From: an uncultured cyanobacterium
GTDB lineage: Bacteria; Cyanobacteriota; Cyanobacteriia; Cyanobacteriales; Nostocaceae
Direction: 5' to 3'
Length of the DNA: 55,037 bases
Assembly (NCBI GenBank): GCA_903848645.1
Contig: CAINGU010000059.1
Location: forward strand, 1-55,037
Shown: in pieces, positions 2,472 through 26,549 of the stretch
How positions within the stretch are numbered: the stretch's first letter is position 1
How the letters are laid out: every line of letters starts with the position of its first letter
Translations under genes and position numbers: made by a program
The notes under the pieces: generated by a model
Told to the model about the DNA's origin: nothing
Databases searched by the model: none
The model's input: only the letters and a program-made list of their open reading frames with translations

Positions 2472-2630
2472 ATTTTATAATTCTAAAATCTCTGAATATC
2501 ACTGCTGGAAAGGGTTTGGGGTATTAAAAATGAAAGGTTTCAGCAGCGACCAAAAAAAAGTTAAAAAATTTTTCCAAAACCTCTTGCATTATTTTGGATT
2601 TCGGTTTATTATAGCTAAAGTTAAGAGCGT

Positions 2631-2702
<72 letters not shown>

Positions 2703-2716
2703 TTTAAATAAAAGAT

Positions 2717-7346: not shown

Positions 7347-7985
7347 ATGGCACTTTATTTAGATTCAGCTATTTCCGCAGAAGCCGAAATCGTTAAACAT
7401 TGGGGTTGGGTAAAAGGTATCACCACCAACCCCACATTATTAGCGCAAGCTAACACCCCACCAGAGACTACCCTGAAAACATTAGTTGCCTTAACTTCAG
7501 GTCCGGTATATTATCAACTCCTCGCTTCAGATCAAGAGAAAATGATAGCCGAGGGTAGAAAAGCCTTTGCAATTATTGGTTCTCAAACTATCTTGAAAAT
7601 TCCCGCCACACCCCTAGGATTTGAAATAGTAGCCACCCTTTCACCAGAAATCACTTGTTCCGTCACTGGCATTTACAGCCCCGCACAAGCCGCAGTAGCC
7701 AAGGAGGCGGGGGCAAAAATCGCCATAGCTTACGTCAATCGGGCTGAACGTTTATTAGGAGACGGTATTGCCTTGGTACGAGATATGGCCAGCATTCTCA
7801 AAGGCAGTGATGTGGAAATTTTAGCAGCTAGTATCAAGTCACCTGGGGAAGCAGCCGCGTCTCTCCAAGCTGGTGCAAATCATCTCACCTTACCTTTGGC
7901 AATGTTGCAAGCCATAGCTACCCATGAATTTTCCCATCAAACCGTGGCTGATTTTGCGGCTGGAGGAATTGGTTTAACAATTTAA
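7347..7985 (+). CDS. Transaldolase-family (fructose-6-phosphate-aldolase-like) enzyme
   Basis: A 212-residue short transaldolase-type TIM barrel. It starts MALYLDSAIS, equivalent to the family motif in which an Asp sits on strand 1. GITTNPTLL is the strand-2 signature, TILKIPAT carries the probable Schiff-base lysine (Lys84), and ITCSVTGIYSPAQA and EILAASIKSP follow. The length fits the small TalC/FSA-like subfamily rather than classical transaldolase. It would cleave or transfer three-carbon ketol units in sugar-phosphate metabolism. The exact substrate is inferred only. Confidence 0.88.
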   Translation: MALYLDSAISAEAEIVKHWGWVKGITTNPTLLAQANTPPETTLKTLVALTSGPVYYQLLASDQEKMIAEGRKAFAIIGSQTILKIPATPLGFEIVATLSPEITCSVTGIYSPAQAAVAKEAGAKIAIAYVNRAERLLGDGIALVRDMASILKGSDVEILAASIKSPGEAAASLQAGANHLTLPLAMLQAIATHEFSHQTVADFAAGGIGLTI

Positions 7986-8171: not shown

Positions 8172-8343
8172 ATTAATTATTCCCGGAAAATATAGGTTGA
8201 AAACTGTTAGGGATGAACAAATAAAAAATTTAAAATAAATGCCAAATTGGCAACCATGATGAAATGAATCAGGCTAAATTATATGAGTCGAGCAAAAACA
8301 AGAGAGTTGTTAAGAGGCTGACTCAATCAGCAAAAGGTTCTTC

Positions 8344-8371
8344 TTGAGATTGCCTAAAAAATAAATAGAAT
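8344..8371 (+). promoter_or_regulatory. Candidate promoter of the structured small RNA
   Basis: TTGAGA (8344-8349) and TAGAAT (8366-8371) are separated by 16 bases. The expected start, about 8377-8379, falls at the first bases of the closing stem of the RNA fold at 8376-8492. Confidence 0.5.
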
Positions 8372-8375
8372 TAGT

Positions 8376-8546
8376 ATTTGCTGCATAGGAATACCTGCTA
8401 AGTATAGACGTTATCGTTAACCTGCAAATTACCCCCCTAATTAACGGTTTTCGTCTGTATGAATAAAGTTCCTAATCGCTTCAGCAGCAAATGGTAGAGT
8501 GGGAGAGAAAGGCGCTTGGTAATGCCTCCTCCCACTCTCTTTTTTT
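8376..8546 (+). ncRNA. Candidate structured small RNA, about 170 nt, identity unknown
   Basis: The fold is one long irregular hairpin. P1 is a perfect 9-bp stem (8376-8384/8484-8492, ATTTGCTGC/GCAGCAAAT). P2 is TAGGAA/TTCCTA (8386-8391/8469-8474). P3 is a 9-bp stem (8402-8410/8452-8460) and P4 is CGTTAA/TTAACG (8415-8420/8441-8446). The 20-base apical loop (8421-8440) contains ACCCCCCTAA. A sigma70-like promoter lies just upstream and a strong terminator (8496-8546) just downstream. The rod shape recalls 6S RNA, but I cannot confirm that. The C-rich loop could pair with G-rich ribosome sites. No reading frame competes with it. Confidence 0.55.
8496..8546 (+). terminator. Strong intrinsic terminator of the small RNA
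   Basis: A perfect 10-bp stem AGAGTGGGAG/CTCCCACTCT (8496-8505/8529-8538) with a possible inner GGC/GCC extension is followed by seven T (8540-8546). Confidence 0.85.
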
Positions 8547-8593
8547 GGGTACTTTTTGTCAGTTTTGTCAGAATAAAATTGACTTAACTGACA

Positions 8594-8747
8594 TACAGCA
8601 CTACAAGAGTGTTATCAGGTACATATCTAGCGGGCAAGACTTGTACTGAGCTTGTCGATAGCGCAGCGTGGCGTTAGCCATAGTATGCCCGCACTACAAG
8701 ATTTTCATGATTCAACTTTGTACCTCGTAAGAGCGGAAACCGCTGTA
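8594..8747. mobile_element. Dispersed palindromic element (TACAGC...GCTGTA), copy A
   Basis: Ends TACAGC (8594) and GCTGTA (to 8747). Inside are the family modules GTTATcAGGTACATAT, GGGCAAGA, TGCCCGCACTACAAGA and GAGCGGAAACCGCTGTA. It matches copies B (21509-21615, opposite orientation) and C (39110-39244). A 46-bp insertion (8640-8685) splits the core GGGCAAGATGCCCGC. It has no coding capacity, so it would be a non-autonomous element. Confidence 0.7.
8657..8682. repeat. 26-bp repeat GATAGCG...GTTAGCCATA nested in copy A
   Basis: This segment matches the reverse complement of 11269-11294 at 25 of 26 positions by my reading. It lies within the 46 bp inserted in the element at 8594-8747. Confidence 0.65.
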
Positions 8748-8797: not shown

Positions 8798-11089
8798 CTA
8801 ACTCCTGGCTGATAATTTCTGACTTTTACGATAAAAACGTTTTCGTTGCAGTATTTGAATTGCTTCTACAATTGCTTCTACTTTTACAGGTTTAGAGATA
8901 TAATCATCCATGCCAACAGATAAACATTCATCTCTATCTGATTGCATTGCATTAGCAGTCAAAGCAATAATATAAGGACGATTACGTTCACCCCACTCTT
9001 GATAAATGGCTTTTGTGGTTTCAATACCATCTAATTCTGGCATTTGGATATCCATAAAAATTACATCATACATTTGTTGTTTTAATACATTTAATGCCTC
9101 AACTCCATCATTAACAATATCTGCTTGATAGCCTAGTTTTTCAAATAATTTCTTAGCAATTTTTTGATTAATAATATTATCTTCAGCAATCAATATTTTT
9201 AAAGGGAATTTCTGTGAAAAACTGACATCAAATTTAATTTCTTTTTTTTCTATTTCTTGAGTTTTTGGTGTAAGTAAATCTAGCTCTACACTAAATGTAC
9301 TCCCTTGAGATAATTCACTAATAACTTTAATTTCACTACCCATGATTTCAGTTATTTTTTGACTAATTGCTAAACCTAATCCTGTCCCTTGAGATTTTAA
9401 TTTACTTTCTCCTACTTGCTCAAATGGCAAAAAGATTTTTGCTAATTTCTCAGAACTAATCCCGACACCTGTATCTCTAACTTGAAACTTAATTTTAGTC
9501 AAATAAAATAACTCATTGCTTACTTCTTGATTAATATAATCAACAATGAAACTTACTTCTCCTGTATCTGTAAATTTAATAGCATTTCCTAATAAATTTA
9601 GCAAAATCTGTCTTAATCGTTTTTCATCCGCATTAATAATAACAGGTATTTTTGAATGAAATTTATAGTTAAAATCAATATTTTTTTCCAGTGCAGAATA
9701 ACTACAGATTTTTACTATACCTTTGATAAGCTCAGAAAAGTTAAAATTTTGCGGTTCTAATTCCATTTTTCCGGCTTCTATTTTAGAAATATCTAAAATA
9801 TCATCAATTAATGTTAATAAATGAACACCTGATTGATAAATAATTTTAATATCTTCTTTTTCTTTATTCGTTAATTTTGGTGAATCTTCAAAAACTTGAG
9901 CAATTCCTAAAATACCATTTAATGGTGTCCGCAGTTCATGACTCATATTTGTGAGAAATTTACTTTTAGAACGATTAGCATCTACAGCATTTTGTTTTGC
10001 CATTTCTAATTCTAAATTTTGCTGAGTAAGCTGTTGCTTTTGTCGCTCTAAAATTTCTGCTGTGTGCTGAAGTTCTGAAGATTTCTCTAATATTTGGATT
10101 TGTGAATTTTTGAGTATTAATATTGCTGCTTTTTTTTCAGTAATAACGGCATTTAATACAAGGGTTGTTAAAACCATAACCGCAATAAAGCATTGGAGTA
10201 ATGATAGAGATTCATTTAAGTTATAACGATTAAATACTCCTAGTCCTCGAACTGTTCCTAAAATAGCCATAATAGCTACAATTACAATTAAGTTAGTAGC
10301 ACCCAGTTTCCCAAAACGAAAAACTGCCCAAACTAAACAAGGAATAATCATGTACTCTATAAAATAGTTACTAAAAAAAGCATTTTCACAGATTAAAAAC
10401 ACAATTTTTAGTAAAATAAAAATTTCAACAATGCACAAAAAATTCCTGGCTTTTAAGTTAATTCTAAATTGTTGTTTATGAGTTAAAAAATATTCTGGAA
10501 ATAACTCCCCCAAACTTAGCAATGCTGGAGTAAAAATAAAAATTCCAGCTACATTAGATATCCACCAAGTCACCCATACTTCAGGATAGTTATCAAGAGA
10601 AATTTTCCCTCCTAATGTTAATGCTGTAACTCCCGCAGTTGCATTCACAATTGGTCCAATCATACCTGTGAATACTAAAAATATAGTCACATCACTGATT
10701 CGTTCTAAGGGAGAGCCTGTACCCACTAATTTGCGAAGCAGAAAACAACCTAATAATGTGCCAGCAGTTGTACCAATAGCAATTCCTAATACCTGCAAAA
10801 TCGAGAAAACCAGAGTAATAATGTTAGTTGGATTAATAAATGCCCAAATATTTGCTAGAAATGAGCCAATTAATACTCCTGGCCATATCCAATATCCTAA
10901 AAGTAACATAGCAGCAGTAGCAAAACCATCAGGTGGCCAAACTGGTGTGACATTTTGGGGAGTAGAAGCGAGAATTCGAGAAAGTTGTGCTGTTTCGTAA
11001 TACACTAAAGCTAAAACTAGGATAAATACTAAACGGATTAATATAAGCTGTAAATTAGACTTCATGAATTTAATAATTGTATTTCGCAT
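8798..11089 (-). CDS. MASE1-containing hybrid sensor histidine kinase with a receiver domain
   Basis: A 763-residue protein. Residues 10 to about 320 form an eight-to-ten-helix MASE1-type sensor (motif VTPVWPPDGFATAAMLLLGY). A coiled coil with several Gln/Glu runs follows. The dimerisation/phosphoacceptor box is [15 protein letters not shown], the ATPase domain has N-box LLNLLGNAIKF and G-boxes DTGVGIS and GTGLGLAIS, and the C-terminal receiver has VIFMDIQMPELDG (phospho-Asp) and ALTANAM...SKPV. It should autophosphorylate and pass phosphate to its own receiver. The signal is unknown, and no response regulator or output gene is adjacent. The gene appears complete and unlinked. Confidence 0.92.
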   Translation of the reverse strand: MRNTIIKFMKSNLQLILIRLVFILVLALVYYETAQLSRILASTPQNVTPVWPPDGFATAAMLLLGYWIWPGVLIGSFLANIWAFINPTNIITLVFSILQVLGIAIGTTAGTLLGCFLLRKLVGTGSPLERISDVTIFLVFTGMIGPIVNATAGVTALTLGGKISLDNYPEVWVTWWISNVAGIFIFTPALLSLGELFPEYFLTHKQQFRINLKARNFLCIVEIFILLKIVFLICENAFFSNYFIEYMIIPCLVWAVFRFGKLGATNLIVIVAIMAILGTVRGLGVFNRYNLNESLSLLQCFIAVMVLTTLVLNAVITEKKAAILILKNSQIQILEKSSELQHTAEILERQKQQLTQQNLELEMAKQNAVDANRSKSKFLTNMSHELRTPLNGILGIAQVFEDSPKLTNKEKEDIKIIYQSGVHLLTLIDDILDISKIEAGKMELEPQNFNFSELIKGIVKICSYSALEKNIDFNYKFHSKIPVIINADEKRLRQILLNLLGNAIKFTDTGEVSFIVDYINQEVSNELFYLTKIKFQVRDTGVGISSEKLAKIFLPFEQVGESKLKSQGTGLGLAISQKITEIMGSEIKVISELSQGSTFSVELDLLTPKTQEIEKKEIKFDVSFSQKFPLKILIAEDNIINQKIAKKLFEKLGYQADIVNDGVEALNVLKQQMYDVIFMDIQMPELDGIETTKAIYQEWGERNRPYIIALTANAMQSDRDECLSVGMDDYISKPVKVEAIVEAIQILQRKRFYRKSQKLSARS

Positions 11090-26310: not shown

Positions 26311-26347
26311 ATTAGCAATGAAATATTAAATTTTTGAAATTTCAAAA

Positions 26348-26421
26348 TGGCTCAGGTCAGATTTGAACTGACGACCCCAGGCTTATGAGTCCCGTACTCT
26401 AACCAACTGAGCTACTGAGCC
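26348..26421 (-). tRNA. tRNA-Met (anticodon CAT), probably elongator
   Basis: A full cloverleaf on the reverse strand. The acceptor stem is GGCTCAG/CTGAGCC with discriminator A, the D arm is GCTC...GAGT, and the anticodon is CAT (26387-26385). The T arm is GTCAG-TTCAAAT-CTGAC. The G-C first pair excludes an initiator with the usual 1-72 mismatch. The alternative tRNA-Ile2 (lysidine-modified CAT) cannot be fully excluded. The anticodon stem has an A-G mismatch next to the loop (positions 31-39). Confidence 0.9.
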
Positions 26422-26549
26422 ACGTTGTTTTATCAACTTATATTAAGATAGCATACTAATTTGCATTTGACAACTATCAATTTCCAAATTCCTACCTCAA
26501 AAATCAAAAGAGGGAGGTAAACTCCCTCAATTAACCAGACAATCAGCAA

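Follow-up and report, generated by a model that had tools for sequence, protein, structure and literature searches.

The window, the whole 55,037-nucleotide stretch of cyanobacterial DNA that was analysed, contains a transaldolase gene at 7347-7985 and, further along, a convergent gene for a MASE1 hybrid kinase at 8798-11089. Between them lie the features of a structured RNA and its putative promoters, listed here by coordinates and strand.

8240-8254, + strand: operator, consisting of the palindrome TGCCA-AAT-TGGCA (8240-8252) followed by AC; palindrome exact before 98 of 98 distinct copies, with AC in 97
8275-8280, + strand: predicted -10 element TAAATT of the conserved promoter P1, placed by a 29-nt spacing, with a start predicted at about 8287 (+/- 2)
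8287-8546, + strand: predicted full transcript of about 260 nt, running from the start that P1 implies through the T-run
8287-8374, + strand: 5' domain (head) of the predicted transcript; match to model R2 at 8234-8335, E 1.2e-6
8344-8371, + strand: TTGAGA-N16-TAGAAT, a possible secondary promoter P2
8375-8493, + strand: rod, seen in the fold; match to model R1 at 8373-8543, 154.6 bits
8375-8384/8484-8493 (closing), 8387-8391/8469-8473, 8402-8410/8453-8461 and 8413-8420/8441-8448, + strand: rod helices in the fold
8431-8440, + strand: C-rich apical motif ACCCCCCTAA
8497-8546, + strand: terminator hairpin GAGTGGGAG...CTCCCACTC with T7, seen in the fold and in stem pairing across alignments

Much of this architecture had been described in a sequence-only reading of the locus, and its elements are indeed present: a perfect 9-bp closing stem (8376-8384/8484-8492), three more stems nested inside it and a 20-nt apical loop (8421-8440) that includes six consecutive C at 8432-8437. 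The terminator proposed there is likewise visible in the fold as a hairpin (8497-8537) followed by seven T, though a simple terminator scan did not list the hairpin. Rod and terminator together fold at -57.3 kcal/mol (positions 8370-8550; z -4.0, with 1 of 200 shuffles equally good), and the predicted transcript (8287-8546) folds at -71.2 kcal/mol (z -2.8). The absence of an ORF also holds, the longest closed frame in this copy having 12 codons. A coding gene was rejected because the frames are short and differ in length between copies, from 3 to 46 codons.

Related copies provide evidence that the rod is maintained as a structure. Using 39 hand-picked copies of 58 aligned (alignment A1; one copy without the 5' part and two duplicates were dropped, and two more were missed by the search pattern), we built a covariance model of the rod, R1, with 167 positions and 48 pairs. 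For the A1 pair counts the structure was assigned by hand, and the count was then repeated on a model-fitted alignment. Standard pairs make up 90.9% of pair cells in A1, as against 38-49% with partners slid, and 21 of the 48 pairs change on both sides; for one measure, that of further pair types, 38 of 500 shuffles attained the A1 value. The second alignment, A2, comprises 65 matches (64 distinct, one partial), all except L058 from copies that were not used in R1. Here 93.5% of cells are standard pairs (36-53% slid) and 34 of the 48 pairs show double changes, amounting to 182 cells compared with 62 in shuffles; A2 was fitted to R1 and leans towards it. The terminator stem is paired at 98.9% and 99.1% in A1 and A2, respectively, and both the loop and the terminator arms are conserved in sequence. 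RNAalifold recovered only the outer helix and the terminator from a MAFFT alignment because gaps were misplaced in it. These observations strongly support the rod as a conserved structured RNA family with marked compensatory change.

BLASTN matched the window RNA sequence in 41 of 100 relatives. R1 matches 134 of 145 Nostocaceae genomes in a first set and 202 of 217 (93%) overall, including 195 of 206 among those of good quality, and this distribution joins the covariation in bearing out a small structured RNA. When R1 was run on 195 genomes from the order, 11 matched, ten of them from the family plus G241; at least two family genomes without a match were among those listed, so that about 183 of the 195 lie outside the family. 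The match in G241, outside the family, reaches 34.5 bits and covers a tail-like piece only. Searching the 15 rod-less family genomes again with laxer filters returned nothing above 24 bits, and plasmids gave no rod match. A single match among viral contigs proved on inspection to contain no rod.

Most genomes carry one or two copies. Within the window's genus, which we take to be Dolichospermum-like, two matches are present in 13 of 16 genomes and a single one in the other three. Larger numbers occur in G033, with nine R1 matches, and in G042, G120, G124, G127 and G149, with four each. In G033, a tandem array of the RNA and its operators extends over approximately 5001-9626 of L050 at about 570 bp per unit; a tandem repeat finder with a longest period of 500 did not report it. 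Many copies have ddl plus a membrane-protein gene on one side and, on the other, a convergent alpha/beta hydrolase plus DUF4112, a position that we refer to as the ancestral locus. The second copy in the window's genome sits at this ddl / alpha/beta hydrolase locus, and the window copy is the extra one. Across genomes the RNA adjoins different genes, which fits a trans-acting gene, and the next gene downstream is often convergent, an arrangement that argues against a riboswitch.

Several genomes record loss or degeneration. Trichormus variabilis (G399) has lost the rod and kept the flanks of a relative's rod; a plasmid of this genome matches strain 0441 and the ATCC 29413 plasmid at 100%. This loss in T. 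variabilis of the ATCC 29413 type may explain why work on Anabaena-type models missed the RNA. Only half of the terminator remains in Nostoc UHCC 0870 (G154). The rod in G188 (L281) is divergent, has only CCC in its loop and lies about 1.1 kb downstream of a head; it looks like a copy in decay.

A palindrome shared upstream was first seen in both paralogues of the window's genome. An exact TGCCA-N3-TGGCA precedes 98 of 98 distinct copies (distinct cores from 119 loci, with partial matches left out), a sample that includes many close relatives, 16 of them from the window's genus and several from one array. The same palindrome occurs in 0 of 98 shuffled upstream regions and in 14 of 93 downstream regions, these 14 probably belonging to the following copy of an array. 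AC directly follows the palindrome in 97 of the 98 copies, and a TAxxxT hexamer stands exactly 29 nt past the palindrome centre in 96; the next commonest distance, 24, accounts for 17 copies. If TAxxxT is taken as the -10 element, the palindrome is centred at -41, the position of a class II activator site. This position is established for NtcA-type promoters. Two claims of the sequence-only reading change as a result. A complete transcription unit of about 200 bp is not confirmed, given a conserved promoter further upstream with its operator at 8240-8252 and its -10 at 8275-8280. The proposed start near 8377 is probably either wrong or secondary, the P1 geometry predicting about 8287.

The head that would follow this promoter is a conserved block in copies at the ancestral locus, where it would form the first transcribed stretch. 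TGCCA-N3-TGGCAAC is invariant in 43 of 43 aligned heads (alignment A3, 43 of 65 heads, which were chosen for the palindrome and not for AAC, with window-type and array copies left out). A candidate head hairpin formed by GATAAACGAC and GTTGTTATC was convincing by eye, yet none of its 9 pairs shows a double change. Window-type copies have three candidate stems in their 5' domain, which are 94% paired with a double change in 1 of 18 pairs; some of these pairs are broken in the window copy. A model of operator plus head, R2, was run on 38 chosen genomes and matches the window's genome twice, at its two RNA copies. A strong head is retained in six of the 15 family genomes that lack a rod, all from one genus (G018, G141, G160, G173, G183, G190). 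Of the other nine, G394 and G399 have a degenerate head (48 and 45 bits), G021 a doubtful one (36.8 bits, without AC) and six (G017, G135, G154, G192, G345, G380) none.

Head and rod can thus occur apart, as the six strong heads and the separation in G188 illustrate, and this keeps alive a reading in which two RNA genes lie side by side. The operator promoter would then yield a short head RNA, and a separate rod RNA of about 170 nt would start at a proximal promoter, with TAGAAT in the window copy and a TAATAAT-like element in others. This comes near the proposal of the sequence-only reading. A TAGAA motif does precede the rod in the 17 nearest copies. The proposed TTGAGA-N16-TAGAAT is present as described, but its -35 hexamer recurs in only 2 of these 17 copies, and promoter-like matches over 1.4 kb are not above chance (7 found versus 5.5 +/- 2.3 expected in shuffles). 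Moreover, operator and -10 are kept before every tested copy, including duplicated and tandem copies and those with an altered head sequence. We regard two separate genes as a possibility to be taken seriously, albeit an unlikely one, and prefer a single transcript that starts at P1.

The operator itself appears, from its genomic occurrences, nearly dedicated to the RNA in its TGCCA-N3-TGGCAAC form. The 15-base operator occurs twice in the window's genome, each time before one of the two RNA copies, and in G030, G039, G056 and G109 a hand comparison of positions places every operator match before a rod. TGCCANNNTGGCAAC is present in 59 of 60 family genomes, and further operator sites exist in most genomes. 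Within 40 hand-chosen stretches around operator sites, mostly away from rods, AC-type sites with the 29-nt spacing number 6 of 44, one of them the head in G018; this rarity indicates that most other sites are unlike the P1 promoter. In six genomes TGCCAAACTGGCAAC or its mirror precedes a Ser/Thr protein kinase gene, without the 29-nt spacing (L391, L394, L398, L404, L405, L406), and the factor that binds the operator may have its second target in this gene.

Outside the family, R2 has weak matches of 34 to 47 bits in 5 of 12 genomes (G060, G065, G070, G079, G241). In G060, G065, G070 and G241, small peptide genes (MIISDLN... and similar) are preceded by the operator with its 29-nt spacing, as is a presumably RTX-like gene in G241. 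The small peptides are of the GG type (L446, L447, L449, L451), and HetP-family or HetP-like genes adjoin in three of these loci: a HetP-family gene in G060 (102.9 bits) and HetP-like genes, identified by eye, in G065 and G070. No NCBIfam model matches the six peptides tested, and no Pfam model matches the one peptide tried. The operator sites before GG-type peptide genes perhaps constitute an undescribed peptide regulon. We tentatively suggest that filamentous cyanobacteria have a transcription factor governing the genes of small peptides, probably secreted ones, and that the Nostocaceae reused the operator-promoter of this factor for a regulatory RNA that is now its main, and in some genomes its only, conserved target. 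If true, the RNA would link a regulon of peptide signalling with post-transcriptional control in filaments that form heterocysts.

In the region of the apical loop, the longest run of C comprises at least five C in 99 of 103 distinct copies; its length varies from 3 to 9 and is mostly 5-6. Its mean predicted unpaired probability is 0.86, compared with 0.38 for whole RNAs, and exceeds 0.5 in 98 of 103 copies. The proposal that a C-rich loop binds G-rich translation starts is thus plausible as far as a conserved run predicted to be unpaired is concerned, but a conserved perfect complement does not accompany it. Searches for perfect complements of the loop, of 10-13 nt, showed none to be conserved. 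Across 99 genomes the matches numbered 29, fewer than in a reversed control, and the RNA itself accounts for some of them; in the window's genome the one other match is antisense to a predicted ORF. For the 10-mer TTAGGGGGGT, 70 of the matching stretches, from 16 genomes, were examined; a single group of 25 combines loci of the RNA itself with others, many from G008, and the remaining groups have at most five members. Several TTAGGGGGGT places in G008 (L341-L347) group by similarity and are perhaps a repeated element. A pairing seed, if pairing occurs, would be short or imperfect. The idea that the C-loop pairs with a GGG of the head loop was dropped because this GGG is missing from several copies.

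An alternative function would be for the RNA to bind or titrate a protein, with no antisense pairing; the binding site would be either the C-loop or the hairpin of the terminator, which is strongly conserved. Sequence conservation of the loop and terminator arms would be expected of such an RNA, as would the missing complement. A C-run whose length ranges so widely nevertheless suits pairing with G-runs at least as well, and a short seed would escape complement searches. Protein binding as the sole function thus seems rather improbable to us. That the locus is a mobile element, a MITE-like hairpin and not a gene, is very unlikely: extra copies and arrays such as the nine in G033 would fit, but most genomes have one or two copies, many at one syntenic place, with compensatory changes and a fixed operator geometry. 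Least credible of all is a 6S or second 6S RNA, since the likeness noted in the sequence-only reading is confined to the outline of a long single-axis rod, 6S (RF00013) gives no match to the RNA region up to E 10, and the canonical 6S of this genome lies on another contig (100.6 bits).

We therefore favor, with moderate confidence, a stand-alone trans-acting small RNA of the Nostocaceae that is controlled by an activator and pairs through its C-loop with G-rich mRNA. A DNA-binding factor, probably an activator, would occupy TGCCA-N3-TGGCAAC centred at -41 and help RNA polymerase at the TAxxxT -10 in class II geometry. The transcript would measure about 260 nt in the window copy and about 330 nt at the ancestral locus, ending at the conserved terminator, and its covarying rod would present, within a conserved loop, a C-run mostly 5-6 bases long that would most likely pair with G-rich stretches of mRNA. 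While the structure, operator, promoter geometry and distribution are computed, we infer from them transcription and its start site, activation rather than repression, the factor, the pairing and its targets, and the mechanism as a whole. Presence in most of the family, combined with the same operator before every tested copy, suggests that the RNA should serve something central. The operator provides a direct handle on the transcription factor and on the condition that switches the RNA on.

The sequence-only reading could not match the RNA to a named cyanobacterial one, and no Rfam family matches it. Rfam at gathering thresholds reports only two tRNAs in the whole window, which contains tRNA-Asn at 2630-2703 (+ strand) and tRNA-Met at 26347-26422 (- strand). 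With Rfam 15 at a loose threshold, no family reaches its threshold in 8250-8650 or in six related loci; a mir-483 hit of 22 bits over the terminator falls far below it. A description of this RNA was not found in the open-access literature, which is no proof that it is undescribed, and Table 3 of selected RNAs in PMC3610870 does not name it. Yfr1 is recognized by an unpaired CACUCCUCACACC motif (PMC4734099), which is absent by inspection from 8225-8560. Table 1 of the same source lists predicted small RNAs of Nostoc PCC 7120, among which 6274486f (169 nt), 2462444f (258 nt) and 268249f (340 nt) would fit in length and in restriction to heterocystous strains; T. variabilis lacks the rod. NsiR1 of Nostoc is a small RNA of heterocystous cyanobacteria that forms a tandem array; the window RNA can also be tandem but usually has one or two copies.

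RepG exposes a C-rich loop, and an exposed loop of the GsrN/RepG type is likewise found in the window RNA, as the predicted unpaired C-run indicates. GsrN of Caulobacter meets G-rich mRNA with a C-rich loop (PMC5869019) and RepG of Helicobacter is a small RNA that meets G-rich mRNA (PMC8295292). The likeness would be in working only; relative to both, the window RNA has a longer covarying rod and a different kind of operator.
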